NCBI GenBank assembly: GCA_905250025.1
Contig: CAJNOJ010000152.1
Location: 124,001-188,000 of the forward strand
Origin: Adineta ricciae
Taxonomy: Eukaryota; Rotifera; Eurotatoria; Adinetida; Adinetidae
Direction: 5' to 3'
DNA: 64,000 nt
The notes beneath the pieces are model-generated. The model saw nothing but the letters and a program-made list of their open reading frames with translations, did no database searches and was not told the DNA's origin. The position numbers were made by a program, and so were the translations under genes. The number at the start of each line of letters is the position of its first letter. The first letter of the stretch is position 1. Shown here one piece after another: positions 12,550-34,161 of this stretch.

Positions 12550-13244
12550 GAGTAAACCTGTTCCTATATTCGTTTTTCGCTTTTATATAAAAATTGTCGA
12601 TTTTCCATGAACTTCTTCAGTGTAAATGTTACATAATTCAATTTAACTCGACGAGAAGTACCGCTTGAGGCAAGATTGTCGAAATCAATTCTCATTGTGA
12701 AAAATTTGACTGACTCCAGGGAAATCTGACTTGATTAATTATTCCACGAACGAGAGAAACCTTTGTTTTCTTTTTTTTCTCACACATATTAATGATTGTT
12801 ATTGCAGTACACAGAAGCCATTCGGATTTGTTTTTCTTCCTAGTTACAACTTGTTTGTTAAACAAGGAAACGATCACCATCGAGTTAATTGTCATTTGCA
12901 ATCAAAATTAGTAGTGCTACTTGCGTCATACCAGCATTTTTCCAAATGAACGACACGTCGTCTAGGCGCTAGTCACTTGAAACAAAACAAAGCATACTTT
13001 GAAGACTTTCTAATCAGTTTCCAAACTGATGTTTTTTTTTTGGTAAAATAGTAAAGAAGAACTCACATGAAATATACAGTACGTGATTGCAGATATGAAA
13101 ATAGAATTATCAAGATAAGAAGTCAGAAAACGTTTCAAGGAAAAAAACTTCGCATGATTATCACAAAGACAATTGATTTATCGATCAATTTTTGGAAGAC
13201 GAAATGTGAAAAGAGCAAGCGAGCACTTTGTCGGAAGACATCGA
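12550..13244. other. Intergenic between convergent genes
   Basis: This 3' UTR and spacer lies between the 203-aa gene (+) and the calcium-sensor gene (-). No gene, repeat or RNA was recognised. Confidence 0.5.
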
Positions 13245-15049
13245 TTATAATCGAACACTAACAATGTCTGGAGAAGCTGGTGGTTGGTTTTCATATATTT
13301 GACGGTTTGGCTTGAGTTCAAAGTCATTTTTTGTGGATAGAAATGATCGATTAGACATGGAAGTGTCTGTCGATTTTTGACGAATGTATTCCGATTTGAG
13401 TTTTTCTTCACCTTCGCGTTTCCACGATTGAAAACTAGATGAAGTTGCTAAATTATTCGTCGTCGGCGATTCAGCATTGGCAGTACGTTGTGCACGTATT
13501 TGTCCGAGAACAGAATTAAACAAATGTTGCCACCGCTCATTTTCTTTGGAAAGTTGCGAGTCAGTATCATCTGAACTCGTTGTTATACGAATAGTCGGCC
13601 GATTGACTTTGCCGTCAATACCATTCTCATCATGATAATGTCGCGCCGAGACTGTCGTAACATTGTTACTGCTATTCAGCGCACGAAAGTCATTCTCAAC
13701 GTCGTCGTCGTCATCATTATCATCATATTTGGTCGGTACTCGTCGTTCGGTCATTCTCGACATGTGTCGAACTAGTTGGGGTAAACGTTGACCATTCTCT
13801 TCATGGTCAGATGTTGATTTGGTATTTGACGACTGTTTCATAAATTTTCGCGATTTTTTGCCTAAATGTTGAATACGTGACGTATCGGGAACATCGAGTT
13901 CATTTGTTTGAACTTCAGATAATAAACCTGATTTCATATACCATTCAATAAATTCGTCTTTTGTTATGTGATCATCGTCATTTGCATTCAGTTCGTTAAA
14001 TGCATCATCAACGCGTTTTTGTATATCGATCGTTTTGGCATGTTCAGTTTGGTTTGTTGTTTGATGTCGGCGTTGACGACGTTTCTGATTGGAATTTGTC
14101 ACATCGACAAGGGTGTGTAACATTTTAGCGATTTCATCCTTTGTTATTTTACCGTCATTGTCCAAATCGAAGACGTGAAAAAGTGTCTCGACAAGACGTA
14201 AACGATTAACAACTGATGCAGCGGACAGTGCCATTACAAATTCTCTAATGAAAGAAAAGAAAGAAAAGTGAATAGCTTTTACCATAATCGAGAAAAAAAA
14301 GAGCAAGAACGCAATTTTAATAATCTGTTTAGTTGAGCAAATTAGATTCACTCGGAAATATTCACTATCTTGATTCGATTTTGTTTTTCTAACTCGACAT
14401 TCCGAAAACAAAACATCAAAGATCTTTCGTTTAACTGATTCGAAATAGAAATGATTGTTGTGTTTTACTTTACGAATAAAATAACAACAACATCATTGAT
14501 AATTGCGTCTATTACTTTTTCAAAACGCTCTTCCTGTTTGCCTTCGCTAAACAATGTGTAGAAAATTTCCTCTTATGCTCGTCGAGTTAAAACTATCGGG
14601 GAAAATTTTGCGTTATTTTTCCTACTAAATGTCGAGGTCAATGTTATGTGCACCATGTATCAACAGATTAAAATCCCTCCGATTGTTGTTTTTCCTATTC
14701 TTAAGCAACATCCGATGCATACTTGAAATCAATAAATTGATTTTTATCCTGATCGTAAACACTGAACATATGTCGAACGTAGTTCGCCGTCTTTTGTGTT
14801 GGTTTGCCCATGATCCTGGCGTACTCTTGTTCAAAATGTTTCAATGTTAATTTTCCATCGGGACAATCTTTGTAAAAGTTTCTGAAATCCAACAAGAACT
14901 TCTCTGTGAGTGAAAAGACGCGAAACTTACGTGTGCCAAGTGAGCAATTCTTCTTCGGTAAAACCTGTGTCTTGACAAAGTTCTTCGATAGTTTCTCGAC
15001 TTAATGGTTGATCATTAACCGAATTCCGTTTTGATGATTTCGAGCCCAT
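13245..15049 (-). CDS. Neuronal calcium sensor-like EF-hand protein with long C-terminal extension
   Basis: Exons 15049..14931, 14881..14723 and 14244..13245 give 425 aa, in frame. Classical NCS/recoverin-family proteins have about 190 aa. It begins MGSKSSK, a good N-myristoylation signal (Gly2 with Ser at position 6). Degenerate EF1 contains CPDG (residues 46-49). EF2 is DQDKNQFIDFKE (83-94), EF3 DLDNDGKITKDE (119-130) and EF4 NANDDDHITKDE (179-190); EF2-EF4 keep usable ligand positions. About 20 extra basic and Gln-rich residues (KRRQRR) sit between EF3 and EF4. The last ~235 residues are Ser/Asn/Asp-rich and probably disordered, with an acidic run DDNDDDDD. An acceptor-like TTCTTCGTGTAG lies 1 nt before the ATG. 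Likely role: membrane-linked calcium sensing; partner unknown. Confidence 0.88.
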
Positions 15050-18000
15050 TCTACACGAAGAAAAAATTTGACATTGAGTATTATGGTCGAATGTCTTTAG
15101 AAGGTATTTAAGAGAAGAGAAAAGAAAAAAGAAGTTACATACAAGGAAAAAACGAGAGAAAGAAAAAAAAACCCGAAAGAGTTTATCTAAAAGAAAAGAA
15201 ACGACAACTACTACTAAAAATGTGCAATGGTTACACAGAGAAAATGTAATGACAACACAACAACGTACACATGGATGTATGTGGCGCATATCGAGCGAGA
15301 ATGAAGAGAAAGAGAATGAGACAAAGGATAGGGAAAGGGACGGCGAGGGAGAGAGAGAGAGAAGAAAAAATATTCGTGTTCTTTGGAATAGGATAAAAAG
15401 TTAAACCTTTAGTTAATTGCATATTAGCTTAATGTATATATCGATGTCATTAGACAGATATGAAATATGTGTCTCAGAGGAAAAGAAATAAACTACATAT
15501 ATCAAGCACTTCAAGTGACTTGAAGAGGAAGAATAAGGAGAGTTTAGACTTTTTAGCTTTTTTAAAAACGACGTTATGAGGCATGAAAACAGATTCTTTT
15601 TCTTCTACGTTGCAGCTTCTTATTTTAATTTCTAAGATTGCAGCTGCTACGTTTATGATAAACAGTTCTGCTAACATATCGTTGCTTGATAATAGTTGTC
15701 AAGGATGAAATATACAATTTCTACTCTACTGCTGATTTTCATGTCAAAATCAGACGAGTTGATTCATTTCCTGTCATGCTTTTCTTCTCTTTCGAAAAAC
15801 AAAATGCAATAAAATCCAGAAAACCATAAATGAAAACGTTTCGGCTCGCAAAATCTCTTCTTCTGAGAGAAAAAAAACGAGAAAATTGCTCATGTCATCT
15901 ACAGATCTACTTCAACATCAAGTTTTACTTATGGCTTCTTTGTTCTTACAACAAATATCCGCCCTTTTCTCATTTTGTTCTCCTTTTCATAAATAAAATA
16001 TAATTCATACCTCTAATCTAACATCAATGCTCGCAGTTTGTGTTTTATGAGAGGTGTCTATTTAAACAATGAATCAAGAGAAAAAAAAAGAATGCCATTT
16101 GATCATGTTTTTTTCGAATAATCTCGATTCAACCGGCAGATCGTTTTCTATACAAGCCTTCACACAAAAACAAGACCTCATTAATTCCATAGCAGAACAG
16201 ATTAGAACAAATAAAAACAAATACAATAGAACCTTGGGTGCTTGCATTTCCACACGTCTTCCTCCCTGTAGACGGATGTTCGAAGAAAACGACTTAACGA
16301 AAACAAATATCTACATCCATCGGTGATTTTCTTCCGTTTTTATCCTTAAAACAGATGATGTATAAAATATTCATCGACACCATTTAACGATGAAGAAGAA
16401 AAACGACGAACCATTATCATTAGTCCTCTTCTTTCACCTAGAGCTGATAACGCGAAGAGAACTAGAAAGAAACAAATGTGGAAACAGATTGTTTGTCTAT
16501 TGGTCGATATTTTTGACAAAATAAGTGCGTCTCGACTCTTTTTCATAGCCGATTCTCTTGCCGAAACGCGAGAGTAACACATCTTACATTCGGTATGTTT
16601 GTCTTTTGTAAATATTTCTTGAAAAGAATTGATACTCTCTAACAAACACGACCCTCAATTCAAAGGCAATGAAACGATCGAAACCAATCTTATCTCACTT
16701 ACATTTCGAAATCGAACGTAACTGCCAAATCTTAATCTTAATGTCAACAACAAGTAATGAAGCATATAATGATGATATTTATCTAGACGAACTCCAATGA
16801 ATCAGAATGACAAGTACGCAGTCTATTGAAAATCAACACAAGTTTTACTTCGAAGTAGAAGATGTTTCTGTCTGCTCATAATCGAATTCTTTTTTTGTTT
16901 GATATTATGCCTCGATAAAAGTAAAGTATGAATGAAGAAGACAGCTCTTAGTCGTAACACTTCATACAAACAAACATACCGATTGCATCGAGATCGTTAT
17001 CCGTATAATAAATGATAGTGTCAGTTTATTGATCAAATACGATAAATACCTCTTGTCGGTCTTTCTTTGTTCAAAAATAATTGCAAACTTTCGGAATATC
17101 TGTTTTAGAAATAATATAACAAGATTCGTTCAAGATAAAAGGTAAATTCATTTCTCGCCGAGCACACGGCACTTTTTTCAACAAGCCAGGTGTCTCAAGA
17201 AGAGAAACGACTTAGCGAAATATAATTTATTAGATACAAAAAACAGATGTACCGACTCTCATCGATGTCGAGTTAAATGCATGATTGTTTCTTTTCTTGT
17301 CTGATTGAATTTGTCGTTCGAAAAAAGAAAACAATGATATTCCCATCACCGTTTTCGCACTTAACTATCTTATCAACGGAACTTCTTACCTTTGGGAATT
17401 TTATTAGACAGATATCACATTCGTTTAAAACGTTCCCGACATCAACTCTTCATTCATTGTTCACTAATCTTCACAGATGATCATGTACCTTCATCAATTA
17501 GCGCATCCACATGTTCTACTTATACTCGTTTGTTATTGACACAAAACTCATGAATAATACTGTTCCTTACCCTAGATATAGACAAGCAGTGCATCGAGTT
17601 AAACATAGTAAATTAATATAAAACGAAGGCATTACGTGTCATTGTTTAAGAACAGACATGATGATTAAGCTTAAGAACGTTTTCATTCAGATCTGTCTGA
17701 CAAAAATTCACATTCCTGAAGACAAACAGATGTGGAAACATCAAGTTTCACCTAGTTTGTCCTTATCCAGTGTTATTAACATGACAGCTGTAGTTTTCCC
17801 CCCTACACCCAAGATTTGGAAAGAAAATCGCATGAAAATATCATGTACATTGAGTAATCGAATTTCGGCTTTCGATTTAGTCACGGCGAATTAATTATGT
17901 AGTACATGTCATGCATACCGATTAAGTATTTCTTTGGATGAATAATAAATCTTCGTTAATTTATAACAAATATTGACTGTATTTTATTCATTCATCAATC

Positions 18001-18273
18001 GTCGACTATACAAAATCAAATTATCGTGAGATATCCAGTCCAAAACTAAAATTACAATATGTCGTGTACACGTGATGGAGAACATTTTTGAAAATAACTT
18101 TTATCGATAGAAAACTTGACAAAATAGTACAAATGAATGCATACAAGAAATAGAAATAAAATTAGAAAAATAATTAGAAAAAAATGAACACATTATGTCA
18201 CCGGGATATGTATTCACAATGCGAATTACAAAAAGAAGAACAAAAATTTTTAAAAAGCGTGTCTTGGCGCATT
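15050..18273. other. Large intergenic region without supported genes
   Basis: About 3.2 kb, the longest gene-poor stretch here. It contains a purine-rich run around 15299-15370 (GAGAGA/GAAAGA). All ORFs are short and show no family resemblance. It lies upstream of the calcium-sensor gene and downstream of the GPR155 fragment, so promoter elements and 3' UTR sequence are expected, but none can be defined. Confidence 0.5.
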
Positions 18274-19518
18274 TTATTTGGTGAAAGCATACCAATTATT
18301 GGCGGAATCAGGAGTTTCTTCTTTTGGAATGCGATTGATACAAACAATATGTTTCATACTCACTAATTCTTGACAGTAGTCTTGGGCTCTCACATCATTC
18401 TCTAGATAACCATTCGAAACAAGCCATTGGCAAAAATCATTTCCGGTAAATATCGTTTCCATTGTATCCAATGAACTATTCATACTAACAAAAAGAAAAA
18501 ACAGCGATAGGAAATCTGCAAGGTACAAAGACAAATGCTAATTTCTTACCTTTGTGTTGATATGGAATGTCGAATGAAATCTGGCCGAATTCGACGTTCA
18601 AAATCAAGTGCTCGCTGCTTGTGGACTGGTTTATGATGAGCACCGTCGGCATCACAAGTAATTTTCCAGCCAAAGCGATTCAATAATTTAATAATTCTAG
18701 AGAAGTGATTAATAGAAAGAGGAAAATCTTCGAGTTTGCTTGCAGATCTTACTTTCGACGTATGGGTAGTAATAAATCAGCATCAAGAGCAAAAACGAGA
18801 AATGTTATGATACCCTAATGAATGCGAATATAAATATACACCGAGGATGCGTGCTCAAACTGTATCTTACTTGACCGTGCAATAAGGCTGTATCCAGAAA
18901 TTGTAATTCATAATAAATGCCATCATGATTGGTGACTGCAATCGACCAGAGTAAAACTGATATGCACTAATATAGAAACAATGAAAGAGTAAAGTTTAGA
19001 GTAGGTTCACCAAACGGCTTACGACGAAAGCATTGATATTTAGTAGACCAACAAGAATTGCATGACGAAATAGTTGCGTATCTATTTCCAATGCTAATGT
19101 TTCTACAGAAAAACTGGCAATAGTACATTTGACAGTTAGAAATCACTTACCTGATAACGTTGAGTTAATTGATATATGATTCGAATGCACATTACTGTCA
19201 CCATCATCGTTATGTTCAATTAATGGCTCGTTTTCTCGTGATATTGAACTTGTACGCTGATGTTCTTCATTGTCTCGTTTTAACTGATACATTCGACGTA
19301 TAATTCGAATAAGATTCGTTGAACTAACAATAATACACAGAGCAAGTAGAACTATTGCAGCACTGTATTGCAATGTGGTAATTTCCTGGAGTCTCGTTTT
19401 CGGATCGCCGTCTTTAGCAGCAACAGTAGATGCCAGAAAGATAGCAATTGTCGCCATTAATGGTGCAAGCCAACCATATAAATGGTACAACCACCAGTAT
19501 CGAAGAGCACGCTGTTTC
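18274..19518 (-). pseudogene. GPR155: GPR155/LYCHOS homolog, 3' half (separated by retrotransposon)
   Basis: This is the downstream part of a GPR155 gene whose 5' part lies at 24430-25888. Exons: 19518..19151 (the continuation of the interrupted exon), 19102..19023, 18966..18871, 18814..18753, 18696..18550 and 18484..18274, with all introns GT-AG. It encodes further transmembrane helices of the GPCR-like region, for example WLYHLYGWLAPLMATIAIF, then the C-terminal DEP domain (FTGNDFCQWLVSNGYLENDV...). In vertebrates GPR155 (LYCHOS) is a lysosomal membrane protein that senses cholesterol and signals to mTORC1. Removing the insertion and one duplication copy leaves 2349 coding nt (783 codons including stop) in frame, so the insertion is the only visible defect. 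Without it the product would be 782 aa; the human protein is 870 aa. Confidence 0.88.
19503..19518. repeat. Target-site duplication, left copy
   Basis: AAGAGCACGCTGTTTC here is identical to 24430-24445. The first A may belong to the element tail, so the duplication is 15-16 bp. It lies in GPR155 coding sequence. Confidence 0.93.
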
Positions 19519-19630
19519 ATTCGTTCTTTCCTCCAAATCGCGATTAGTCGCACTGATCTCTCGAGGGTGATTCACTTATTCTTTCGCTTTTATTAATCTT
19601 ACATATTAAAGGAGAATTCTGCCTGGTCTG

Positions 19631-21172
19631 ATGACCGATTCTCCTGTCATGTCGATTAGTGAGCAGGAGACCACTCCTGTCTCAAAAACTAATCCATCAA
19701 CAGCACAAACTAATCAATTACAATTAGCGAAAAACACCTCTAAACGATCGAAAGCGTCTTTGGGTGATGATTCATTCGAATGTGAACATAGATTGGCTAA
19801 TTCAACAAACCAATATTTCAACCGAGGTGACTCACGGTCGATTGCAAATGGAAATCAAATTGGAACAGTAAATATGAATGGAAATTCTCTTCCCAATAAA
19901 CCAAAAGAAATGAAACAAGCTGGTCGACGCCCGACCTTCCCTCCGTTTCGCATCAATATTCTAAACAACAAGAAGCCATCGGAATTATCGATTATCAAAA
20001 ATATTAACAAACATTGTCGCACATCGATTAGCTATGGTCGATATGTTTCTACGACAAACAAATCAACGTTTCTCATTTTTGCCAACTCCGGTCAACAATT
20101 TGATTACCTTATGAATCGAAACGTCTGGCCGGTGACGCTGTGCGAATCCGATTACACAATCGAATTACCAACAAAAGTTCCTTCTTCATATTCGATTGTT
20201 GCACTCGGTATACCAACTCAATGGGATATTTCTGACTTCGAAATCGACCTAAAGAAACAATATCCTTCGATCGTTAAAATAGAACGGTTATATGTTCGAA
20301 ATGGTATACCAATGCCGAAGGTTCGCATCGACTTCTCATCGAATGAAGATACTCAACAGATTTTAAAGAACAAGAAGCTGCTCCTCGACGACGAACACAC
20401 GTCATTCAAGGTGCAACCGTATGTTCCACCTGTCAAAGTTCTTAGGTGTTTCAACTGTCAGCAATATGATGACCACGTTGCATCGAACTGTCCTCAAAAG
20501 GACAACCCGGTCTGTTTCCGTTGTGGTCAGAATCATCCTTTCGATCCCAACTGCCGCAACAGCATCCGATGTGCAAATTGCAAGCAGGAACATATGGCAG
20601 GGAACCCCAGCTGTCCAATGAAAATCGAAGCAAGAAGAAAACTTATAGCCAAACCAGCTGAACCCGAATCGACGAAAACCAAACGTTCCGTCAAATCTGT
20701 TCCACCACCTACAGCTTGGACCAACGCATCTCACTCGCCTGCGGCAGCCAAACTATTTAATCAACCAACAACCAACACCAACCACCTACCAACAAGTCAA
20801 CAGTTTAACGCTTCCCAACCGGACTTCCTTTCGATCTCGGGCAAGCTCGACATTATGTTGAACAAACTCGATACACTGGCCGTCGAACAAACGAACGCCA
20901 ATAAGAACATTGAAACTCTGTTTAAAGAAGTCAACTGTTGTAAAGAAAACATTACAGCTATGCAACATTTTCTTTTGAATAAAATTTGCCCTTTCATAAC
21001 CAGAATTAGCAACTTCTGTCTAGGCACTATCAATCCAAAGAACAAAGAAAAACTCGAGAAGTTCTTCTCCACTTACCAAGACGACCTCCAATCATTAGTA
21101 ATCAATAGCTCTAATCGCCTGGAACATCCACAGGAGCGACAAAATCCCCATATAAATGAACGCAACAGCTAA
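19631..21172 (+). CDS. Retrotransposon ORF1: Gag-like zinc-knuckle protein
   Basis: 513 aa. The N-terminal ~90 residues are Ser/Asn/Gln-rich. A folded domain follows (about residues 105-265) with features of the region that precedes zinc knuckles in Jockey/I-type ORF1 proteins (YSIVALGIPTQWD, IVKIERLYVRNG). Three CCHC-type knuckles follow from about residue 273: CFNC with H and C, CFRC with H and C, and CANC with H and C. After a Pro/Thr-rich linker, residues from about 395 onward are predicted helical and may oligomerise (LDIMLNKLDTLAVEQ). ORF1 proteins bind the element RNA and act as chaperones in the ribonucleoprotein. The stop lies 17 nt inside ORF2, in another frame. Confidence 0.9.
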   Translation: MTDSPVMSISEQETTPVSKTNPSTAQTNQLQLAKNTSKRSKASLGDDSFECEHRLANSTNQYFNRGDSRSIANGNQIGTVNMNGNSLPNKPKEMKQAGRRPTFPPFRINILNNKKPSELSIIKNINKHCRTSISYGRYVSTTNKSTFLIFANSGQQFDYLMNRNVWPVTLCESDYTIELPTKVPSSYSIVALGIPTQWDISDFEIDLKKQYPSIVKIERLYVRNGIPMPKVRIDFSSNEDTQQILKNKKLLLDDEHTSFKVQPYVPPVKVLRCFNCQQYDDHVASNCPQKDNPVCFRCGQNHPFDPNCRNSIRCANCKQEHMAGNPSCPMKIEARRKLIAKPAEPESTKTKRSVKSVPPPTAWTNASHSPAAAKLFNQPTTNTNHLPTSQQFNASQPDFLSISGKLDIMLNKLDTLAVEQTNANKNIETLFKEVNCCKENITAMQHFLLNKICPFITRISNFCLGTINPKNKEKLEKFFSTYQDDLQSLVINSSNRLEHPQERQNPHINERNS

Positions 21173-24161
21173 AATCTTCTTTCCGAATGAGAAGAAACAA
21201 TACACACTTGATACCAGCAACTTTACTAATGCCGAAAAATTGATATTGAACGACTTGTTCAAAGAATGGTCGGATACACCTACACTCGACCAACTCCTGG
21301 ACAGGTGGACCATACACAAAGAAAGAAACATCGCCGCAATGACAATCAAGCAAAACCTGTCTGTTCTTCTACTGAACATTGCAAGCTTGAACCGTTATCT
21401 AGCTGATGTATACAATCTAATCGATTCGATCACAACATCCATCATCATTATAAACGGTACACACCATGACGAAAGAACCATCAAACGGTTCTCTTCTCAC
21501 TTCTTCAACTATAATGTCTACTCAATGAAAGGATCAAACGATTTTGGTGGTGTTCTTATCGCTATCCACAAATCAATCAACGCACAACGAGTAAAATCTT
21601 TTGACGATATCGAAAATTTAATTGTTCTAGAGATAGGCGAGGGCTCAAGTCGGTTTCAACTGGTCACTTGTTACTCGCCGCCACTCGAAGAAATACCTTT
21701 CGATATTTTTGATCAAATCTTAGCAAGGAACAAACGCACCATTCTTACTGGTGATCTTAACGCAAAGCACCGCGCTTGGTCAAAGTCAGTTGAAAATCCA
21801 AAAGGTTTAAAATTGTTCAAGTGGTTAACACGTGACAAATCACATTGTGCACTGAACGTCATCAACAAATTTGTCCCCACGTCAACACGCTCGATCGCCA
21901 CAATCGATCTTGTAATAGCACCCACATTTCTCGCCAACAACACTTTCTCAGTTCTTCCATCGATTGGTAGTGATCACCATCCGGTCATCTGGCACTCATC
22001 CATCGAAGCAAGCACCAAACACATCTTACACCCCATCAAGCGCACCCGATGGAAACTTCTCGAAATCTTCCTCACCTTTACGGGATCATTTTGGCAATCT
22101 CTTGCTTCGACAATGTCTCACTCAGCGGATTATTTCACTCTTTATGAGCGTTTCCTATCATTAGCTGCCAGTCGGGTCACTTTCGTCTCGCATCAACAAG
22201 CATTTAAACCGTCGTTACCACCTGAATTAGTGAAAGCTATCGAACACAAACGATCAATACTCAAACTTTACCGTCGAACGGGGCATCCGTTCTTCGTAAA
22301 TGCACTCCGGAGTATGACCAAGATCGTCCAGAAACAACTGTTCGAACATAAGAGAAACAGCTGGATGGAGTACTGCAACTCCTTCAATGAAGGCAATGTC
22401 AAATCTTTCTGGAAAAAGACCAAACACCATTTCAAGAACAAAAGTGAATCAATCGAAGGTTTTATCAACAGCAACAACAGCACCATAACTACCTTACCAG
22501 CGGATATGTGCAAAATCGCAAAGGATTTCTACAGCGAACAATTCACCAACCACACAAGTTCGCACACAAACATTGAAGTTCAAGCGGAAAAGGTGGAAAA
22601 GGAAATCGAAGAAGCGCTCCGCAACTCGCCACCAGCACATATCGAAATCGCTTTCGATCAGCTTCGGCATGCCATTAAAACATTAAAGAACAAGAGTTCC
22701 TGTGGTCTAGACGGAGTCTCAAACAAGATACTCAAACTTTTACCACCAAACCATCTGACAACAGTCCACTCGTGCATGAACAATTTCGCACGTACACTGA
22801 AAACACCTGATAATTGGCACATTGCTCGAATGATCTTGCTGTCGAAAGCCAAATCAAAAACTATCAAAATCGATGAAACTCGGCCCATCTCATTACTGTC
22901 GTGCTTTTCAAAGATCTTCGAAAAATGTTTTATGATCCAATTTAGACAATGGATACACGATCAAGGTATTCTACCTGCAGAACAAAGCGGTTTTCGTCCC
23001 GGCCATAATATGGCAGTTCGCCTAGTTTCTATTGTAGATCAGATAGGCCAATGCCTTTCTAAGAACACGGCAGCAGCTGCACTCTTCGTCGACTTCCGTT
23101 CAGCTTTCAACCAAACCTGGTTTGGTGGACTTTGGCTAAAGCTGAACAACTTGCATTGTCCACTGCACTTCATCGCCTGGTTACGGCACTACATGAAAGA
23201 CAGAAAGGCTTATATCGACATTAAAAATTCGACATCCGACCTATTCATACTCGAAAAAGGCGTCCCTCAAGGCAGTTGCATCGGGCCGCTGTTGTTCATT
23301 GTGTACCATTTCGACATTCTCGAATCATTAAAAACCATCCATTACAAACATCTTTTCGCCGACGATTTAGCTATTGTAATCGCACCATCACCCTATTTGG
23401 CGTCAGCAAGCATGATTCTAGACCTTACGGAGCAAATCAAACAAGTTCTTAAACATCTAATCGATTATGCTAACAAATGGAAACAACCGATCAATTTTAG
23501 CAAAACATTTTGGACATTATTCCACCGTCAAGTTGCTCCGAAAACACCTAGCATCGAATTCGAAGGTCAAACAATCCATCACACCAAAAATTTTAAATAT
23601 CTTGGAACGATCCTAGACGCAAAACTATCTTTTTCAGAGCATATTGATTACATCAAGGCAAAGCTACAGTCGAACCTGAACATCTTCAAAAAACTAGCTT
23701 ACAGTCGTATGCTTAACGAAAAATCGAAATCTCGGCTATTCAACGCTTTCATCAGACCTCACTTTCAATCACTGCTCAACGTCTATCCAATTCTCTCACC
23801 GTCTAAACAAAAGTCGCTAGAAGGTTTTAATCGTAAAATCTACAGAACAATGCATCTTTGGTTTGACGCTAGAAATATTGAAATTGAACATCTTCCGACG
23901 TATCAATCAATATCGAATTTGGTAAATAAACATTGGGACAAACTATCGGCAACGATTTTGCGCACCAACCCAGATATTATCGAAGATTTTCTACAACACA
24001 AGCTCTCAATATTATATATGAGAGAATACTTAACAAACCCGACATTATCTGACAAACGGAAAAAGATCTTTAGAAAAGGAAGAATCGGTAAAAACATCCG
24101 TAAATTAATTACCGAGAACAAGCTCTCTCTGTTCGATCACGTTCTCTGCTACAAGTCGTGA
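21156..24161 (+). CDS. Retrotransposon ORF2: AP-type endonuclease and reverse transcriptase
   Basis: 1001 aa, overlapping ORF1 by 17 nt in a +1 frame, so translation probably relies on reinitiation or frameshifting. The N-terminal endonuclease (about residues 68-285) shows LLLNIASLN, TGDLNAKH (D200, N202), TIDLVIAP (D251) and SDHHPV (D273, H274). The usual catalytic Glu of the E-T-H/W motif appears replaced by Gly101 in NGTHH. The reverse transcriptase (about 520-800) has RPISLLSCFSKIFEK, EQSGFRPGH, the FVDFRSAFN catalytic Asp motif, GVPQGSCIGPLLF and FADD (734-737). No RNase H motif follows. The ORF has no stops or frameshifts. The endonuclease nicks the target and the reverse transcriptase copies the RNA from the nick. 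Confidence 0.94.
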   Translation: MNATAKIFFPNEKKQYTLDTSNFTNAEKLILNDLFKEWSDTPTLDQLLDRWTIHKERNIAAMTIKQNLSVLLLNIASLNRYLADVYNLIDSITTSIIIINGTHHDERTIKRFSSHFFNYNVYSMKGSNDFGGVLIAIHKSINAQRVKSFDDIENLIVLEIGEGSSRFQLVTCYSPPLEEIPFDIFDQILARNKRTILTGDLNAKHRAWSKSVENPKGLKLFKWLTRDKSHCALNVINKFVPTSTRSIATIDLVIAPTFLANNTFSVLPSIGSDHHPVIWHSSIEASTKHILHPIKRTRWKLLEIFLTFTGSFWQSLASTMSHSADYFTLYERFLSLAASRVTFVSHQQAFKPSLPPELVKAIEHKRSILKLYRRTGHPFFVNALRSMTKIVQKQLFEHKRNSWMEYCNSFNEGNVKSFWKKTKHHFKNKSESIEGFINSNNSTITTLPADMCKIAKDFYSEQFTNHTSSHTNIEVQAEKVEKEIEEALRNSPPAHIEIAFDQLRHAIKTLKNKSSCGLDGVSNKILKLLPPNHLTTVHSCMNNFARTLKTPDNWHIARMILLSKAKSKTIKIDETRPISLLSCFSKIFEKCFMIQFRQWIHDQGILPAEQSGFRPGHNMAVRLVSIVDQIGQCLSKNTAAAALFVDFRSAFNQTWFGGLWLKLNNLHCPLHFIAWLRHYMKDRKAYIDIKNSTSDLFILEKGVPQGSCIGPLLFIVYHFDILESLKTIHYKHLFADDLAIVIAPSPYLASASMILDLTEQIKQVLKHLIDYANKWKQPINFSKTFWTLFHRQVAPKTPSIEFEGQTIHHTKNFKYLGTILDAKLSFSEHIDYIKAKLQSNLNIFKKLAYSRMLNEKSKSRLFNAFIRPHFQSLLNVYPILSPSKQKSLEGFNRKIYRTMHLWFDARNIEIEHLPTYQSISNLVNKHWDKLSATILRTNPDIIEDFLQHKLSILYMREYLTNPTLSDKRKKIFRKGRIGKNIRKLITENKLSLFDHVLCYKS

Positions 24162-24344
24162 AACTACAACAAATCGGCAACTGGTCAAGCTATTTCGTGT
24201 CTCTGTGTATTGTGGACTATTGATCCCTATATACACGTATCTTTTTTCTGACTCTCTCCTTTTCCCTCAGCTAGCATTGTCTCCGCTTTTTTTCTACGTA
24301 GATTAGCATCACCTTTTCTTGTATCAACAAGGTTTTTTTTTTTA

Positions 24345-24373
24345 GGCTACAGGAGCGATGTTCGCTTATAGCC
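24345..24373 (+). other. 3' UTR stem-loop of the retrotransposon
   Basis: GGCTA (24345-24349) pairs with TAGCC (24369-24373). AGCGA (24354-24358) pairs with TCGCT (24362-24366) around a TGT loop, with a small internal loop between the stems. It sits about 55 nt before the end of the element. Several LINE reverse transcriptases recognise such 3' hairpins. That role here is inference. Confidence 0.55.
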
Positions 24374-24402
24374 ATAAGTGACGATACTGTTATATCGACA
24401 CT

Positions 24403-24430
24403 TAAAATAAAAGCTATATATATATATATA
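24403..24430 (+). repeat. (TA)n tail of the retrotransposon
   Basis: AAATAAAAGC is followed by about eight TA units ending at the target-site duplication. Simple-repeat tails replace poly(A) in some LINE groups. Confidence 0.8.
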
Positions 24431-24445
24431 AGAGCACGCTGTTTC
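24430..24445. repeat. Target-site duplication, right copy
   Basis: This is an exact second copy of 19503-19518, directly after the (TA)n tail of the element. It marks the 3' junction of a target-primed reverse-transcription insertion. Confidence 0.93.
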
Positions 24446-25888
24446 GAGTAGCATATGGTTATCATGAGAGCAATTGAAACACTGGTTGCCCATGCACGAG
24501 TAACCAGCGCGACTGTGATACTACCTGAAAATTGAAGGTATATAAGTATGGAAACAACTTTGAAGAAGATCATTTCACTCACCTAATTCAACAATAGTTG
24601 CCGCAGTAGTTGATATGGGCGTCGGTACACATTGAATAGCTATTGTCCACATCGCATGAATCATTTGAAGACCAACGAAAATGAATGTATATTTATGTAC
24701 AAACGATATTTTTAATAAACGACGTCGCAAACCGAATCCAATCAAAACAATAATTGTACAAAGTAACGATAAAACACTCAGATCATATGCAGTTTTAACT
24801 AGACTGGAGTCATACGATTGAGCTTTAATAACATCCAATGCCTTTAGATTAATCATCTTAGCTGACACTAACATAATCGGTCCTGCGAGTAACGTTGACA
24901 CAACTAAACCTGTAGAAGCAATTGCTTGTAAAGCTGCATAGGATTCCGGTACATAAAATATCACAGACGGAGCTGTTGGTGCTGTTCCATATAGAAATCC
25001 GAAATTCGAATAATCGATTGTACTATTCAAACTTCCATTGACGGGTTTCAGAAGAAAGAAAATAGCTTGACGTAATACTAGTGGAAAGACAATCAGTTTA
25101 ATCATACTCAAAATAAACACGGTTATAACTAGATGTGCATGAAGACGACTTAATTTTCCAACCATTGTTAAACCTAGATAGAACAATGCAGTCGAACTAA
25201 ACGATTGCGCTACTGGTGTTAATATATGATCAATAAGATCAGGTAAATGTTCGTTAAATATTCGATTAAATATCACACCTAGTACGGTACATATGACAAT
25301 CGGATTTCGACTAATATTTTTTAGAATGATTTTCAATAGCTGAAAGCGTTCGCGCGCATGAATATGTCGATGTTGATTTTCTTGATTGAAACGCTTTTGA
25401 ATTTCGATTAGAAGGATACCAATCGGGTTGAGTATGACCAAAGATATCGGTGCAATCAGATAGATGTATCGTTCATAATCTGGATGGGATTGTTTATAAA
25501 CCGCATTGATTATCGGAAGAATCAATGCAAAATCATTGCTTTGAGATGTCATTATTGCGTATAAGCCCATGCTAGCGAAATTCCTTGGACGTTCACCGAA
25601 ACAAGTAACAATGATTGTGATTAGAAAAACACTTGCTTTAGCAATAAATACCGAGCCAAGAAAGGCCCATGATACACTTTGGAAATGTACGTTAACAAGA
25701 TTTTTAAATATCACAGCGGGTAAAGCGAAGTTACTAATATAACGTGAAAGACCTATCGATTGAGTATTCGTCAGCAAATTCAATTGTCCGGCTACGTAAC
25801 CGACGCCAATGATAAAGAAACACTGTATCAAGGCTGGATAAAGTTCTTGATCAATGGCCATAGTCGGGTTGTTCGTATCGTTCATCAT
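24430..25888 (-). pseudogene. GPR155: GPR155/LYCHOS homolog, 5' half (PIN-like transporter domain)
   Basis: Exon 25888..24583 encodes a 435-residue multi-helix domain of the auxin-efflux-carrier (PIN-like) type, including NFALPAVIFKNLV, LNPIGILLIEIQ and a two-part bundle of about ten helices. Exon 24524..24430 continues with ITVALVTRAWATSVSIALMI and then runs into the retrotransposon at the target site (KQRAL is encoded in both duplication copies). Reading on, the frame enters element sequence and stops after about 50 foreign residues. If expressed, the product would keep the transporter-like domain and lose the rest of the GPCR-like part and the DEP domain. TTTCTTTGTAG lies 3 nt before the ATG and only about 185 bp after the Wntless stop, so the two genes may be co-transcribed and trans-spliced. 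Confidence 0.9.
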
Positions 25889-26072
25889 CTTCTACAAAGA
25901 AATAAACAGAGATTGAGAACAAATATGGATGTCATCGAATAACAAAATGTCAATGAAGATTCTTTTTAACAAACAAAAAAAAATTTCGTGGAATAACAAA
26001 GAAGATTGCGAGAGAGAAGAAAAAACATTCGTATTGAATTGTAATTATCTGACATTATTATAACAATGAATT

Positions 26073-28335
26073 TTAACTAATCGCTGCTTTTGTAATCATT
26101 TGATATGCTGATGTTTGATTGTTTGTTAAATGAATTGTATTACCATCATCGTCGGTCAATGCTAATCGAAATTGAATTCATTCTCATCTTTTGCCAATCA
26201 CAATCGTTTTCTACTTACTTAATTCATCCATATCGTCAACGTTAGTTATGACCGGTGAAAATAAGATCAAAACAGCAAATACATAGAGATTCAACATTCC
26301 ATAAATGCCTGGCAAAGAAAATTGAATATGTGCATAAATTTACTCAATGTTTTTTTTTCTTACCAGTGATAAATGCACCTGTGTAGTGAATCTTTGGCCG
26401 TTGATCTGCATCCCAAACCCATTCAGTTTCATATATCTGACTCAAACAGTACCAAACAATGGTTAATACAGCACATAGAATGGTGGATAATAACAAAAAT
26501 TGAAATCGATAGAACGCACCCTACAGTAACAAGTTCAAAATTTAGAACATATATTATCCTGATCAAACCTGATACATTAAACGTCGAATACGACGCATTG
26601 CTGCTAATTCACCTTGTTTACTGCGAATATTCCAAAAGACATGTGCAACAAGAACAATTAAACATATCATGTAAATGAAACCCGATAGACCCGCAAGTAT
26701 TAGAAATGTGAAACTTGCATTTCGACCAGCTGATGTCGACCAAATCGAATGAAATGGATTCCAAAGTTGAAATCCTCTACAGAAAAACAAGATCATACTA
26801 TCGAATCGATGTTAAATTATCATGTTTTACCTTTGACATAGAGCGAATATGAGTAGAACACTTGAAGCGAACCAAAGTAAGCCAATATACTTTCCATACG
26901 ACCAAAAAGTTCCATCTTTGCTCTTGTCCTACGAAATGAAAATATCTCTTGTATCAGTTATGAACTTCTGTACGAACTTACAACAACGTGTTCAGCAGCA
27001 AAAAACAACCAAAACGTCAAAAGAACGGTCAGAAAGAACCCTTGTCGAATTTCACTATAAATTTGAAAACCATCGAAAGGTACTATCAGTGTGAACCATT
27101 CCACGGGAGCTAAAGTCAATAGTTTCTTTCAGTTGAAAGGTAATATTATTATTAAACAACATATACCATTGAGTATACAGGTTGCTAAACCGAGTAAGAA
27201 CAACAATCTACACAAAGCATAACGAAAAGTATTTCTTTCAAAAGAAAAGTTCCATTCCTTACTTATCCAGATTAGAGTATGGTTTCTCTGCCCGTTTCAT
27301 TTGTCGATAAAACCAAAGTAGAGCGACAAGAACAATGGGAAAGGTGATACTTTTCAATATGTACCACATCTTTGTAAAAGTTTCTGTTTGATAGATGCCC
27401 TACAAGTTCAAAGATGATTCGAAGAAACTATCGAACCAAATCGAATACGAACGACAAATTCGAATGTTTTTAATTTGCCGATATTTTGCGAGAGACCATT
27501 CTTATCAACAATTTGTAAATTGATCAAATAGTACGGATATTTCAACGTTGATAGTTCGAGAAAAGCAAATGATTCGCAAGAATACGCATCAGGAACATTC
27601 TTTATACACAAAGGAAATCATCTTATTTGATTTGAATTGAATGGAGCTGCCTTACTTTATTTCCAATTTTATGATAATATACCGGTTCACACTGAATTCG
27701 ACGAGATTCTCTTGATTCTACTAATAGCTGCCATTCCGAATTTGGATCGTCATACATTTCGTCGGTTTTATAAGCAAGACGAACATGATAGGTCAAGATT
27801 GCATTTGAACCTGCCGGAAAGAGAGAAGTTATTTGTCAATAAAAAGAAACACCATGAAACTTACTCAGATTAATTCGTGAGTCATAGTCAACTTTTGGTA
27901 TCACGATTGATGTTAAAGTTTGAAACCAACGTGTTATGCGTGGTAATTGCATAACATATACAAAATCTTTCCAAGACTTGCCCTAGAACAATAGGTTAAA
28001 GTTCAAATGCTGTCTTTTCCTGATGCATTCATCACCATACCGTTCCAAATTCCAGATGATCTTGAATACAGTTACCCTCCGGTTGATGGTAGATCCACGG
28101 CCTATTGAGTCTTGCTTGACATAAGCTAAATTCATGATTAGTGGCGTAGGTCGGCTTCGTTGCTAAATATAGCCAAAGGAAAACTTTGGCGTATACAAAT
28201 ATATCAATTAACCTTTCCACTCTTACCGATAAGGCCGCCAACGAGAAAATAGATTATTTGAAAAAATATCAAACAAATAAGAAAACTTAGGAGTTTTCGT
28301 CGTGTTAATTGTTCTAAGAGAACAAGATAAACCAT
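26073..28335 (-). CDS. WLS: Wntless (WLS/Evi), Wnt cargo receptor
   Basis: Multi-exon minus-strand gene starting at 28335 and ending with TAA at 26073-26075. WLS carries lipidated Wnt from the Golgi to the cell surface. The N-terminus FFQIIYFLVGGLI matches the first transmembrane helix of animal WLS. The luminal beta domain follows (ATKPTYATNHEF, LPRITRWFQTL, LAYKTDEMYDD, FVVRIRF), then helices beginning MWYILKSITFPIVLVAL. The segment GFQLWNPFHSIWSTS...NIRSKQGELAAMRRIRRL (26563-26780) aligns closely with the human region GVQLTNPFYSIWTT. The end GIYGMLNLYVFAVLILFSP is the last helix. Introns are short (about 45-60 nt). It is head-to-head with the kinase gene at 28575 and about 185 bp upstream of GPR155. 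I found no break in the exons followed. Confidence 0.93.
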
Positions 28336-28574
28336 CTCGTTGATATTTTGAAATAAAGATAAAAGCGTTAACACAAAGAATTTATCTATCTATCAAAGTT
28401 GAATTCTTTCTCCTTAGACAATACCTAAGCGAATAATGTAACAGGTCACCAGATGTCAGGTATGATGTATCTATCATCTGATTTGTAAAATGTAACCTAT
28501 GATTCATACCTTTCAATGTGCTCATTCACCACCGTGGTTTCTTTTTCTTACATTCCGTAGGCTTCATTGAAATC
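28336..28574. promoter_or_regulatory. Short bidirectional promoter region, WLS / receptor kinase
   Basis: Only about 239 bp separate the divergent start codons of WLS (-) and the receptor tyrosine kinase (+), so both promoters and 5' leaders must lie here or overlap the genes. TTTCTTTTTCTTACATTCCGTAG ends 14 nt before the kinase ATG and looks like an acceptor. No TATA-type element is convincing. Confidence 0.5.
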
Positions 28575-31500
28575 ATGTTACGAGTACTACTATTCACGAT
28601 TCTATTTGGTTATTTCAAAATTGAAGGTAAGCTATTTCTCGCTGAAATTTTGTATTAGACTAGTGTCGTGAAGGTGTAACTATTGAATATCCAACAAGTG
28701 TACATATTGTTGAACGAATACGTACAGATATTGCCACAATTGATCCGATATTCCGTTATTATATTGTACCACGGGAGATCCAATACCATGCTGATGCATT
28801 GAAAGGTCGATTGGAGTATTTTCTTCAGTGTAAAGGAAGTCGAAATTCGATCACATTAACTGTACCATCAACTGCAACTAATGTATGAAACACCCACCTG
28901 AGAACCTAATAGAAACTGTCTTTTTATCTTTCATTAGCATTTATCATTGAATACAGATTATCAAACAAATACAGTTACAGCGAAATTGAGAAGAAGTCAA
29001 CTAACGTCAGATCTCGTCGGACGTTATACATGCTCCGAAATAATCGACGATAAGAAACAAGAAACGAACGTTCATGTATTTATACAAGGTGAGTGTTTTT
29101 TTTTCTTGAAGAAAAACCATTGAATAAGTCATCTTCATAGATGGAGTGTCTGTATTTACGAAAAGACTTTATCCGAATGTTTTACAGCAGACAGGTATTC
29201 ATTTTTTCAATTTACCATGTCAGACAACAAGCTGGTATGCTCGAATGTCGTGTCCGATGCCAATTAATCCAAATCAATGTGAAACGCGTCAATGCACTGA
29301 TCGAGAGCGGCTAGTGAATGAGTTGAAATGCAATATTCCAATATGCAATGGTCAAGATTTATGTATTCCAGTATATTATACACCATCAAATTTGCAGGCT
29401 TCTGTTCGTACTAATAGAATTCAAGGGAGATATTTTATTTTTCTGTTCTTTAGAAAGTTTTCTTTGATCCGCAAATAGGTTTTGCGTTAGAAAATCCAAC
29501 AATCCCGATTTCATTGAATGAATTCACCTGCAAGAGTAATTATACACCAAGTCAGAAATCTCGAATTCCATTTGATTCATATGATCGTATGATTCGTTTT
29601 CTTTCACATAATCGAAGCATAAATATTTATCTTTAGCTGATCATATCGAAATGCATCAACCGAGTCTGACTGTTATGCCGGATGAAACAGTCAAATTGAG
29701 CTGTGAAATACAATATGGAATCAAACTTGCTCAAAAAGTACCAAGTATCTTTTGGTTCGACGATATCTACGATGTAAACTATTTCTTTCGTCTGAATTTT
29801 TACCGTATGAGCCGTCGAATATTTCTAGCTTAAGCTCATTGCAAATGAAACTGAAAAAGCTGTATTCAATTCTGCAACTCAGGTTTATAGTCGAAATAGT
29901 TCGATTACTCTACGTGGTTTCAAACCCAATAATGTCTATCGATTCTATTGTGTACGCGTCTCCGAGCAAGGAATCTATTCACGTCCTGTTGATATCAAAT
30001 GTGTTAATAGTATGTAGTTGTTGTCGCTCTACGAGCATATGGTAGAAAGGTGTTTCGTCTATTTAGAACCATTACTCGATCTTGAAGTGGCTTCGACCGG
30101 TTCCGAGACAATTATTCCTGCATCTTATGGCTCAGATAGTAGTTATGATATATCTATATTCACGATTCCACGTTCGAAAATTCGTTTGGAACTCACACGT
30201 GACGGAGTATCGTTAGCAAATGATAAACGCTTTGAGATCGTCACGACGTAAGTAGTCATTATTGGATTTTTTTTTAAAAACATTGACAAACAGCTAATAC
30301 TCGTGCTTCTTCTTCTTCTTACACGCATCTATTCACAAACAGATCAAAGGTATTTGCATGTGTATGTTTTGCATGAATATAGTCGTGAACGAAAAAAGCC
30401 AAGCTAGATATTTCTCTCTTTTATTCATGGAATTTATTATTCGTGTATTTAGAACTGATCGTGAGAATCAATTTTACGAATTTACGTTAACAATTTATAA
30501 CATAACCTTCGAAGACGAACGGGATATAAAGATAAGTGCCAAGTCTTCTGTTGTAGAACAAATTAAATTGATTAAACCACAAGTGATTGGAAATCCTGTT
30601 GGACAGCTTGCGTTTGTACCGATCGAAATTCCACGATACGTTTCATGGCGAGATGAAAATTTCAAAGATAAATCGAATATTTATGCATATGGCATCTACG
30701 AGAATGAACCATACCGAGTCGTTTGTACGATTCGCCATCGGGCTGATATTGAACGATCATTGAATGTTTTTATACAACATACTGAATGCACAATGGAACA
30801 TTGCTTATCAGATATTATTGATAAAACTTGTCAATCGTCGTCCAATCAACGTTTACCGACGAGTAAAGCAACTCGTATTAATGATTTTCAAACACAATTT
30901 GTTAGTATTGAATCTCAAACCATTCACGACCCATTGATTGCTCATCAATACATTTGTTGCTATGAACAGAAGGGTTTAGTGCAACTTGCCAAAGCTTTGA
31001 CAGTCTTAGCACGTAAGTGACACGTGAGTCATTGTGAAAAAGTCGAATTCCATATTGATATTCAGATAATCGGAGTATGTTTGTGGTTAGCAAACCAGAG
31101 TTTGGTTTAGTTACCGGAGACGTTTTGACATATCGATGTACGGGACATGATTTAATCTATGACGATCTACGAATGATTTATAATGATGGGTCGACTACGT
31201 ATGAAAGAAACCGATTTGATTCGGAATGGCATTCAATAGAAACTAAACAGCCGAGACAAGTTGACGTCATCTGGGTAACACCAACCAGGTTTGATTGGCT
31301 TTTTTTTGGACAATTCCTTTTTTAACTCTTTGTGTTTGTTTGCTGCTCACTAGTGAATCTATTCGAGATACAACGATCGAAGTTAGAACACCACCGTTGA
31401 GAAGAATGGGAAAGAATGGTTATCTGCAGTGTATAGCTTTATCCAAACGAACTGATATTATTCCGAATATGAACGATACATACATCATTGACGTTGACGG

Positions 31501-34161
31501 TAAAGTGAAAACAACGAATCTTATCGAGTTTTATAGGGAATTCTCTTGATTGCAGATCCTATACCATTGCAGTTTAGAAACAATTTATCATCGGTTAGTA
31601 AAATAGATGGAAAAACGGGTATCAATGTTGATTTCGATTGTACATATAATGGACGACCACAACCGAAAGTAGTTTGGTTAAAAGGAAAACTACCACTGAT
31701 TAGTGACGATTCAACATTGCAATTGCGCGAGAATAACGGAAGGTAAGGTATTTATTTATTATAGGACATGGCCTTAGGAATCTTTTTTTTGCAGCATTCA
31801 CATCACTCGCGCTCAAGCATCTGACACTGGTTACTACACTTGCGAATTAACCAATGGTCGCGGTCCAGTGTTAAGTCGAAGCTTCGACCTACGAATTAAA
31901 GGTAAGTTACAATAATGCTACACTTCTTCCACATACTGTTATCTTTTTAATCTAGGCCCCTATCTAAATACAAGATTTCGTCGATTAACAGCAATTTTCA
32001 TAATAATATCCGGTTGTGTAATAGTACTTCTCTTGATCCTACTAATTATTATTGCTGTCAAATATTACAAAATGAAGAAGCAAGTTCAAAACAGTATTTT
32101 TCATGCCGAACAACCTGCTGAACCTGAAGATAAATCTCAGCCACCAATGACACAACTAACTCGAATACCATTACCGGATAATTTCGCGTCAACACAACAA
32201 GTTCGTACACTGCTTAATTACGTCAATGGTGAGAGTTTACCAGCAGTGAAAGATGATTTTAAAGAACTTGGTCATGGACAGTTCGGCGTTGTCTATCAAG
32301 TCCGTTTACCTGAAGTCGATCTTGTTGCTGCTAAATTGCTGCCTGACACTATACGTAATACCGAACGTCGTCGTGATAAACGTAAGAAAAGTGATGATCT
32401 CGAGGAGAGTCAAGAAATGATATCGAAAAAAGAATTGCAAAAGAAAAAAGCTGCTGAAATGTTAATCGATGAAATTAAAGTGATGCACAAGGCTGGCAAA
32501 CATGTCAATATTGTTTCATTACTAAAAGTTGCTTATCCCGAAACAAAATTTAGATATTTAATCACAGGTGGATTGATTCGTGATGAAGATTCGTTCTATC
32601 TCATGGAATTGTGTTCGAATGGTTCGCTCGAATCAATGTTAAAGCGATTTCTTCTTCCAGCATCGACTCCGCCACATGGTAAACTCTCGTTGTATGAGAC
32701 ATTAGCGAAACAAAACGACCCTGGAATGACACTCACTCAGGCACATGAAACGTGTATATTAACTGAGGATGATCTAATATTAGTTGCTTATCAAGTTGCC
32801 TCTGGAGTCGATTATCTCAATCGAAGACAAATTGCACATTGTGATATTGCCGCAAGAAATGTTTTAGTTAGTGCTAGATTTATCATGAAAATATGTGATT
32901 TCGGGTAAGTAGAATATCTCGATGATCGAGTTTGAAAAAGTAAAATCTTTCATCTAGTTTGGCAACATGGACTACGTATAAGAGTTATCGTGAACAACTA
33001 GCAGAACACGATAGTGTTCAACTTGAAAAGAAAAATGTATGTGATGATTTGTAAAAGAATGAAGGATGTGTTGTTTTGTCTTTAGAATGAAATAGCTACA
33101 CATAATTTAACACCAGAACTAGCTCGCGCTTTTCTACGTGCATCAACTCCTGATGAACGCTTATTATTGAATAAATCGTCAATTAAATCTGATGTGTAAG
33201 AAAACTCTTTTTTTTAAATAATATGACATTATCTATTTACGATTAGGTGGTCATTTGGAATCTTTCTCTGGACATTATTTCTCAAATGTGAGTGTTCAAT
33301 TGTCGATATTCTTTCTTGATTGACTTTTCAATTGTATGTATGAAGGTCGTATTCGACCATTTAATAAACTCGTGGAAGAAACGCAACGTCGAAACGATGG
33401 TGAAAGTTTCTTTCGTATATTGGCTCGTGTGGTCAGCGAAGGTCATGTTCTTCAATACATCGATTATCACAAAGAAATTCCTGGAAGCATGTAAATATGC
33501 TCATTCGTCTTTCAATAACATTTCTCACTTCTGTGCATTTAGCTATGCCATCATACGAGAATGTCTAGTAGATGAAAATCGTCGGCCGGAAATGACACGT
33601 ATACGGGCGCTTCTATGCCATTCGAAAATGTTATCAAAGCAAGCATTTGAAGTATGCAGATCAATTTATGAGAATATTAGTTCGTATGTCTTTGTGTTTC
33701 AGTACTATCGATCGGAATACAATCGTTATCAAGAGGAAAATGCCACTGATGAAAACGTTCTACGTTTTGGTGACGTTCAAGGCGTCAGTGATTTGCCTAC
33801 GTTCGATAGTGAAACGAATCCTGGTGTAAATCCCAGTTCAGTCGACTCTCATGGTACGAATGATGTTACTTTCCGTCCATCAACTACGAATGAATATTAT
33901 CCAACAGCAAGTGAAGGAACAACTCATACATATCTCTCTCAATCAGATCGAGATGATTCTCAATATAGAAATGATTCTTATTTGGTTCCAACGACGACCA
34001 ATAATCGCAAGCAAGCTCCACGAACGATAGCAGGAAATGTCCGCGATGAAACAGTTCCATTAGTCCCTCTAGTAGGTATTAAACCGCGTGCGCCATTGAA
34101 ACCATCCGTGCCACCATCCTCATCGACGGCGCGCGATAATTCGAACGATAGCTATGTGTAA
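28575..34161 (+). CDS. Receptor tyrosine kinase with Ig-type ectodomain (VEGFR/PDGFR-like), atypical kinase
   Basis: Many-exon gene. ATG 28575 opens a signal peptide (MLRVLLFTILFGYF). The ectodomain has Cys/Trp-bearing Ig-like segments, for example GRYTCSEI and, next to the membrane, VVWLKGKLP with DTGYYTCEL. The transmembrane helix is near 31983-32065 (AIFIIISGCVIVLLLILLIII). Kinase motifs: GHGQFGVVY, AAKLL (ATP Lys), DEIKVMHKAG (helix C), HCDIAARN, CDFG and SDVWSFG. Oddities: HRD reads HCD, so the Arg is lost but Asp kept; about 35 charged residues are inserted between the ATP Lys and helix C; and the activation segment is long with TPE in place of APE. The tail has several Tyr motifs (YRND, YLVP), a Pro-rich stretch and a C-terminal DSYV resembling a class I PDZ ligand. 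Exon edges in the ectodomain are approximate. Confidence 0.88.

Follow-up and report, generated by a model that had tools for sequence, protein, structure and literature searches.

Insertion of a recent retroelement into coding sequence has already been described in bdelloid rotifers, where Nowell et al. (2021; PMC7943196) report an 8.1-kb long terminal repeat (LTR) retrotransposon, hemizygous in Rotaria magnacalcarata, that interrupts a midasin-like coding sequence. Among non-LTR retrotransposons of the long interspersed nuclear element (LINE) type, experiments described for UnaL2, ZfL2-1 and ZfL2-2 show that a 3' stem-loop is recognised by the LINE's own protein and is needed for retrotransposition (PMC4176376). 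Published divergences for gene copies in Adineta ricciae give a mean synonymous divergence (KS) of 0.14 between homologues and 1.27 between ohnologues at a GC content of 35.6%, the corresponding values in A. vaga being 0.05, 0.61 and 30.8% (Nowell et al., 2018; PMC5916493). The present analysis concerns a stretch of 64 kb (the window; C152:124001-188000), examined against the 130.46-Mb assembly of 1033 contigs from which it comes, in which a full-length LINE lies within a coding exon of a homologue of GPR155/LYCHOS, the human lysosomal cholesterol sensor.

It is very probable that an apurinic/apyrimidinic (AP) endonuclease LINE was inserted into coding exon 2 of the C152 copy of this gene after that copy split from its counterpart on contig C61. 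The gene is on the minus strand and the LINE antisense to it, and removal of the element together with one copy of its target-site duplication (TSD) restores one uninterrupted frame, 783 codons long with its stop (782 amino acids), which runs from a start at 25888 to a stop at 18274 through seven coding exons, every internal border being AG/GT. The site without the element is found on C61: over the 19.9 kb compared, this contig matches window positions 8676-19518 at 91.3% and 24424-33436 at 94.3%, and the two matches lie in a collinear run exceeding 19 kb and adjoin at the insertion site. C61 is continuous across the site; it differs once from the duplicated stretch, at a position on which both window copies agree, and its gene is uninterrupted. 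The duplication is seen as a 15-bp exact repeat, AGAGCACGCTGTTTC, with plus-strand copies at 19504-19518 and 24431-24445; it can be extended by one base leftward and by none rightward, has no third copy on the plus or minus strand of the window, and from base composition is expected by chance 4e-5 times per window. Its copies are identical over the full 15-16 bp. Among 13 direct-repeat families in 19400-24550, the longest of 21 nucleotides, only the TSD links both ends, and the element is therefore of the non-LTR kind. Position 19518, a C, is best counted as the element's own, because the perfect 16-bp TSD of a relative on contig C227 stops ahead of CATTC.

Both open reading frames (ORFs) of the element are intact, and they overlap by 17 nucleotides. 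ORF2 contains an AP-type endonuclease (Pfam Exo_endo_phos_2, E 3e-14) and a reverse transcriptase (Pfam RVT_1, E 4e-25) with the motif FADD at amino acids 734-737, and its sequence matches one PDB entry, the RNA-directed DNA polymerase 8c8j; the gag-like ORF1 reaches only E 0.13 against Pfam zf-CCHC. The element thus encodes endonuclease and reverse transcriptase in a single ORF, lacks LTRs, and has a short TSD and AATAAA followed by a simple tail, as expected of a LINE of the AP-endonuclease type.

The identity of the interrupted gene is best judged from the uninterrupted protein encoded on C61, which at 784 amino acids is shorter than human LYCHOS/GPR155, which has about 870. When this protein was searched against the PDB, all 12 entries listed at E <=0.001 were GPR155/LYCHOS or fusions of it, the best match having a whole-sequence E of 1e-90 with amino acids 3-383 aligned (the PIN-like domain) and a second stretch at amino acids 576-756 scoring 39 bits. 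Pfam Mem_trans is clear, with the PIN-like domain at amino acids 19-341, and the DEP region, at 18.6 bits, falls under the Pfam cut-off of 32.7. In domain content and order the protein appears to be like human LYCHOS/GPR155 as described (PDB 8u54; review PMC11574030), with a PIN-like domain, followed in the same succession by a putative GPCR-like part and a weak, candidate DEP region. The insertion follows 1400 coding bases, at about codon 467, and read-through into the element gives a 519-amino-acid product of some 466 native and 53 foreign residues before a stop. In these respects the original prediction, made from the window's letters, has held up well: the GPR155/LYCHOS identity is borne out by the PDB matches, the identical 15-16 bp duplication proves to be a perfect repeat at both ends, both ORFs are open, ORF2 with its two enzymatic domains, and the restored frame of 783 codons with its end coordinates is as predicted. 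Its count of eight exons is reduced to seven coding exons, the eighth having probably come from counting the two halves of exon 2 separately.

Whether the query was the protein of exon 1 or the DNA of either side of the gene, the search returned the same four loci, on C152, C61, C20 and C69. The C20 and C69 copies are open, at 770 amino acids each. The four copies form two pairs, with nucleotide identities of 94.4% and 93.9% within pairs and 63-64% between them; nonsynonymous and synonymous divergence (dN, dS) are 0.029 and 0.165 for C152/C61 and 0.033 and 0.180 for C69/C20, and between pairs dS is 1.68 and 1.89 in two comparisons with C20. The locus follows the degenerate tetraploid pattern of bdelloids, its pairs being close within and distant between. 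These divergences and the GC content of the window (35.4%) resemble the values published for A. ricciae, and the ohnologue dS of this locus exceeds the mean given there (PMC5916493). The host is thus most likely a bdelloid close to A. ricciae. The telomere repeat (TGTGGG)n, considered as a marker of bdelloids, did not discriminate, its reversed control being the same repeat in a shifted phase.

The time of arrival can be approached through the condition of the host copy. With C20 and C69 as the outgroup by which changes were polarised, the interrupted copy has 14 replacement and 29 silent changes over the whole gene, and C61 has 12 and 15 (Fisher p 0.45); downstream of the insertion the counts are 7 and 14 in the interrupted copy and 7 and 5 in C61 (Fisher p 0.27). 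Under a simple model with a background omega of 0.12, in which the sampling error of silent changes is ignored, the share of the C152 branch spent unconstrained is best estimated as 0 and, roughly, at most about 0.11 (95%). The downstream exons show no sign of relaxed selection, and the element therefore arrived late. What had been proposed as a young full-length LINE in an otherwise undecayed gene, and hence a recent hit, agrees with this result and with the empty C61 site, the intact ORFs and the perfect TSD; the suggested search for an empty-site allele or an ohnologue free of the element found both, C61 being empty and C20 and C69 intact. The claim that the affected gene would be the cholesterol sensor overstates the likely consequence: three more intact copies are present, and they exclude loss of the only such putative sensor. 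Little is said here on LYCHOS biology because those three copies remain.

The sequence of events would then be as follows. Target-primed reverse transcription into exon 2 would have produced the 15-16 bp duplication after the C152 haplotype separated from C61, which retains the empty site. The cut copy would yield no working protein, since the DEP region and most of the GPCR-like part would be missing, and the harm would be masked by the remaining copies, so that the insertion is probably well tolerated; in living animals it would be hemizygous. Several points weigh against this account. The junctions and the arrangement of copies are read from assembly sequence alone, and searches of the 130-Mb assembly with the element's DNA, ORF1 and ORF2 brought up no donor copy. 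Zero differences over the 15 bp of the TSD are, on their own, a weak clock. Among the four relatives checked for duplications, the one on C300 gave no TSD and the one on C189 gave a 7-bp match only, its 5' side containing a run of N. An older insertion erased from C61 by gene conversion would look identical, though the undecayed host argues otherwise.

The missing donor would be accounted for if the element had come by horizontal transfer, for instance from another bdelloid, and jumped directly into the gene. No DNA match above 73% over more than 100 bp is found elsewhere in the genome and the nearest full-length ORF2 is 58% identical, as such an origin would predict; however, the one-intact-copy state recurs in the C227 lineage, the only other one searched genome-wide, bdelloid transposon families are usually of low copy number, and a donor may have been lost, left unassembled or collapsed. 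Transfer is on this evidence unlikely. Another possibility concerns the tolerance of the insertion and not its origin, namely that the cut copy still makes a useful shorter protein, the transporter-like part alone. The cut lies beyond the entire PIN-like domain, which suits this idea, but the foreign tail and premature stop would favour decay of the mRNA and three full copies are present, so we regard it as very unlikely. Slightly harder still to credit is an old insertion that preceded the split of the haplotypes, the C61 copy having then shed it through precise replacement or gene conversion. Bdelloid homologues are known to undergo gene conversion with one another, and C61 alone cannot separate a site that never held the element from one that lost it; against this, C61 differs from the joined window flanks merely by scattered changes, divergence on either side of the site equals that of the whole stretch, and the host copy is undecayed. 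A false join of element and gene in the assembly, to which the presence of only one copy of the element might point, deserves next to no credence, since it would neither duplicate the target site on both sides nor restore the frame exactly, and the element begins with CATTC and finishes at its 3' side as its relatives do. A LINE insertion into the C152 copy after its split from C61 remains the explanation to which the evidence most strongly points.

The coordinates of the element and of the interrupted gene are collected in Table 1. The TCATTC at the 5' terminus is likened to an initiator, and the AGTCGC at +28 to a downstream promoter element, in both cases by comparison with the respective consensus; the latter did not hold up as a family trait, the pattern occurring in only two of six relatives, in one of them with a poor fit. 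Elsewhere in the window, open frames resemble by eye a VPS51-type tethering protein (5151-7812), a METTL9/DREV-type methyltransferase (8800-9432), an SCO1-type copper chaperone (36476-37117) and a copper type II monooxygenase (60438-61754).

Table 1. Features of the LINE and of the interrupted GPR155/LYCHOS homologue, in window positions.
Feature	Position	Strand	Remarks
LINE (non-LTR retrotransposon)	19518..24429	+	full length, 4912 bp
5' TSD, AAGAGCACGCTGTTT	19503..19517		next C (19518) assignable to target or element
3' TSD, AAGAGCACGCTGTTT	24430..24444		
TCATTC, 5' terminus	19517..19522	+	initiator-like
AGTCGC	19546-19551	+	like downstream promoter element, +28
ORF1, gag-like	19631..21172	+	513 aa; open frame and zinc knuckles
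ORF1 CCHC zinc knuckles (three)	20447-20491, 20513-20554, 20570-20614	+	
ORF2	21156..24161	+	1001 aa; endonuclease domain, then reverse transcriptase
Pair of 3' UTR hairpins	24345..24404	+	24345-24373 conserved, T tract before; 24375-24404 varies between relatives
AATAAA, then AGC and (TA)n tail	24406..24429	+	adjoins TSD
Host coding exon 1	24583..25888	-	PIN/auxin-carrier-like transmembrane domain
Host coding exon 2, part before insertion	24446..24524	-	to about codon 467
Host coding exon 2, part after insertion	19151..19518	-	
Host coding exons 3-7	19102-19023, 18966-18871, 18814-18753, 18696-18550, 18484-18274	-	

Relatives of the element are spread across the genome, and a near-identical copy is not among them. 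With the element's DNA as query there were 16 matches; besides the window copy these are 15 pieces at 65-95%, those above 73% being at most 98 bases long. The ORF1 search gave at least 34 matches, the next best at 47%, and the ORF2 search at least 52 (46 of 188 candidates scored); these counts are lower bounds, and a near-identical copy is expected among the best candidates. Full-length, stop-free ORF2 relatives next in rank, among the matches scored, are those on C189 (58%), C227 (55%), C300 (49%) and C499 (46%). The element is therefore single-copy as far as the search sees, its donor missing, and its amplification elsewhere in the genome was rejected within the reach of the DNA, ORF1 and ORF2 searches. 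The genome-wide DNA search covered two lineages, this one and that of the C227 relative, for which there was no second intact copy and only pieces at 92-95% (C681, C580). A strict one-copy rule is at odds with several close pairs: C158/C581 at 89-96%, C208a/C208b at 93%, and C227/C681 at 81% over 722 bases and 94-95% in ORF2. The clade thus appears to be made up of deeply separated lineages, each holding a single member or a few.

Shared structure extends to the ends of the elements. By eye, CATTC lies upstream of ORF1 in all six relatives whose ORF1 start was covered, and TSDs were found for three elements, of 15-16 bp in the window, 16 bp for C227 and 16-17 bp for C499. The C227 site has an uninterrupted duplicate at C227:55497-55874, 96% identical over the junction, which makes a second empty site in the clade. 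This full-length LINE with intact ORF2 (C227:43466-48466) lies in a tandem duplication, within one of its two units; the partner unit (C227:55497-57227) is 95-96% identical with an empty site, but has about 1 kb of extra sequence slightly beyond it. The C499 relative (C499:43874-49549), also with an intact ORF2, is in a gene that by eye resembles a leucine-rich-repeat gene, and its empty site was sought on the homologous contig C572, which is without the stretch surrounding the site. Two decayed copies on C208 (106969-110498 and 119826-123361) are about 13 kb apart and 93% identical over 3.1 kb; their match continues past the 3' hairpin into the flank, which suggests segmental duplication and not two jumps.

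These relatives also have in common a hairpin near the 3' end. In the window the 3' untranslated region (UTR) folds into two hairpins with a minimum free energy of -23.6 kcal/mol (z -5.5; none of 200 shuffles as good), and the first of them is found again, T tract included, at the 3' terminus of relatives with ORF2 pieces of 42-75% identity. The T-rich tract ahead of the hairpin (24333-24343 in the window) ends in CAG or TAG in several relatives, like a 3' splice acceptor. A 27-base hairpin pattern allowing up to three mismatches is found at 12 places in the genome, and its reversed control at none; counting C189, C300 and C499, which were read from the sequence, the hairpin occurs at 15 places or more. 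Nine of the 11 matches outside the window are at loci with an ORF2 match (C7, C208 twice, C556, C227, C655, C158, C581 and C436), and the others are C681, with an ORF2 match of 54%, and C687, beside ORF1 and ORF2 matches. A short interspersed nuclear element (SINE) family sharing the hairpin was considered and rejected, all 11 adjoining LINE ORF matches. No Rfam family matches at E <=1 in 18000-26500.

Conservation of pairing was assessed in alignments of 10 and 13 sequences, the latter adding C300, C436 and C499; 13 strings, C208b not among them, were folded, and pair counts exclude C681, whose core is that of C227, and C687. With 10 sequences 93.6% of cells are paired, the covariation score is above all 500 shuffles, and each slid register is less than 40% paired. 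With 13 sequences 89.9% of cells are paired, 5 of the 11 pairs have changes on both sides (a count matched by 5 of 500 shuffles), and there are 11 double-change cells, the shuffled mean being 3.1 (none of 500 as high). Other results speak against a conserved hairpin: in the smaller alignment both-side changes affect 3 of 11 pairs, and 56 of 500 shuffles do as well; pair types are no more numerous than in shuffles in either alignment (330 of 500 as high with 13 sequences, 476 of 500 with 10); a tenth of cells in the 13-sequence alignment are unpaired; the C499 row, misaligned by the program, counts against the hairpin; and among the folds that of C158 has little stability (-2.9 kcal/mol), and the C436 string as cut forms the inner stem only. 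The hairpin may be undescribed, a limited literature search having given no stem-loop in rotifer Jockey-type LINEs, and it may serve as a tag that lets the reverse transcriptase of the element select its own RNA. As a tentative extension, these elements might form an undescribed bdelloid clade whose reverse transcriptases recognise a tag of T tract and hairpin, and whose deep lineages of about one intact copy jump without amplifying, each new insertion replacing a lost parent or arriving by transfer. If this were true, the insertion in the LYCHOS-like gene would represent the most recent jump within a lineage of this kind. Lineages with one intact copy and a common 3' RNA tag would offer a testable case for the survival of retrotransposons without amplification, and perhaps without sex.

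Comparison with described systems places the locus among known phenomena. The non-LTR element Hebe of A. vaga (PMC2861651) shares the 5' CATT and a gag-like ORF1 with three CCHC knuckles (485 amino acids in Hebe), an ORF2 with AP endonuclease and reverse transcriptase (896 amino acids in Hebe), low copy number and intact copies flanked by TSDs; set beside Hebe's description, the CATT end and the three knuckles suggest a Hebe-like element, which may belong to the Jockey clade. In contrast to Hebe, compared here by its description only, the window LINE ends in (TA)n and not poly(A), has a TSD of 15-16 and not 7-12 bp, and has longer ORFs, and whereas Hebe is described as mostly subtelomeric with 72-bp repeats in its 3' UTR, the direct repeats of the window LINE are no longer than 21 nucleotides. 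The description of Hebe consulted mentions no 3' hairpin. Tail, TSD length and 3' UTR repeats do not fit the description of Hebe, and the element was not taken to be Hebe itself. Its stem-loop near the RNA 3' end is like that of the stringent-type LINEs (PMC4176376), though known here from conservation and covariation alone. The closest parallel is with the R. magnacalcarata insertion (PMC7943196), likewise a recent retroelement in a bdelloid coding sequence that brings in a premature stop while the assembly also contains an intact copy free of it, and for which a matching argument of masking is made. Unlike that LTR element, reported from two related individuals, the present one is a non-LTR element with a TSD, set against three other intact copies in one assembly. 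It provides a well-bounded example, with its empty copy at hand, of a LINE recently active in a genome of the asexual bdelloid type, and illustrates how an insertion that breaks a gene can be masked where that gene is present in four copies. A LINE insertion presumably masked by an intact copy is in this sense a clean new case of a phenomenon already published for bdelloids.

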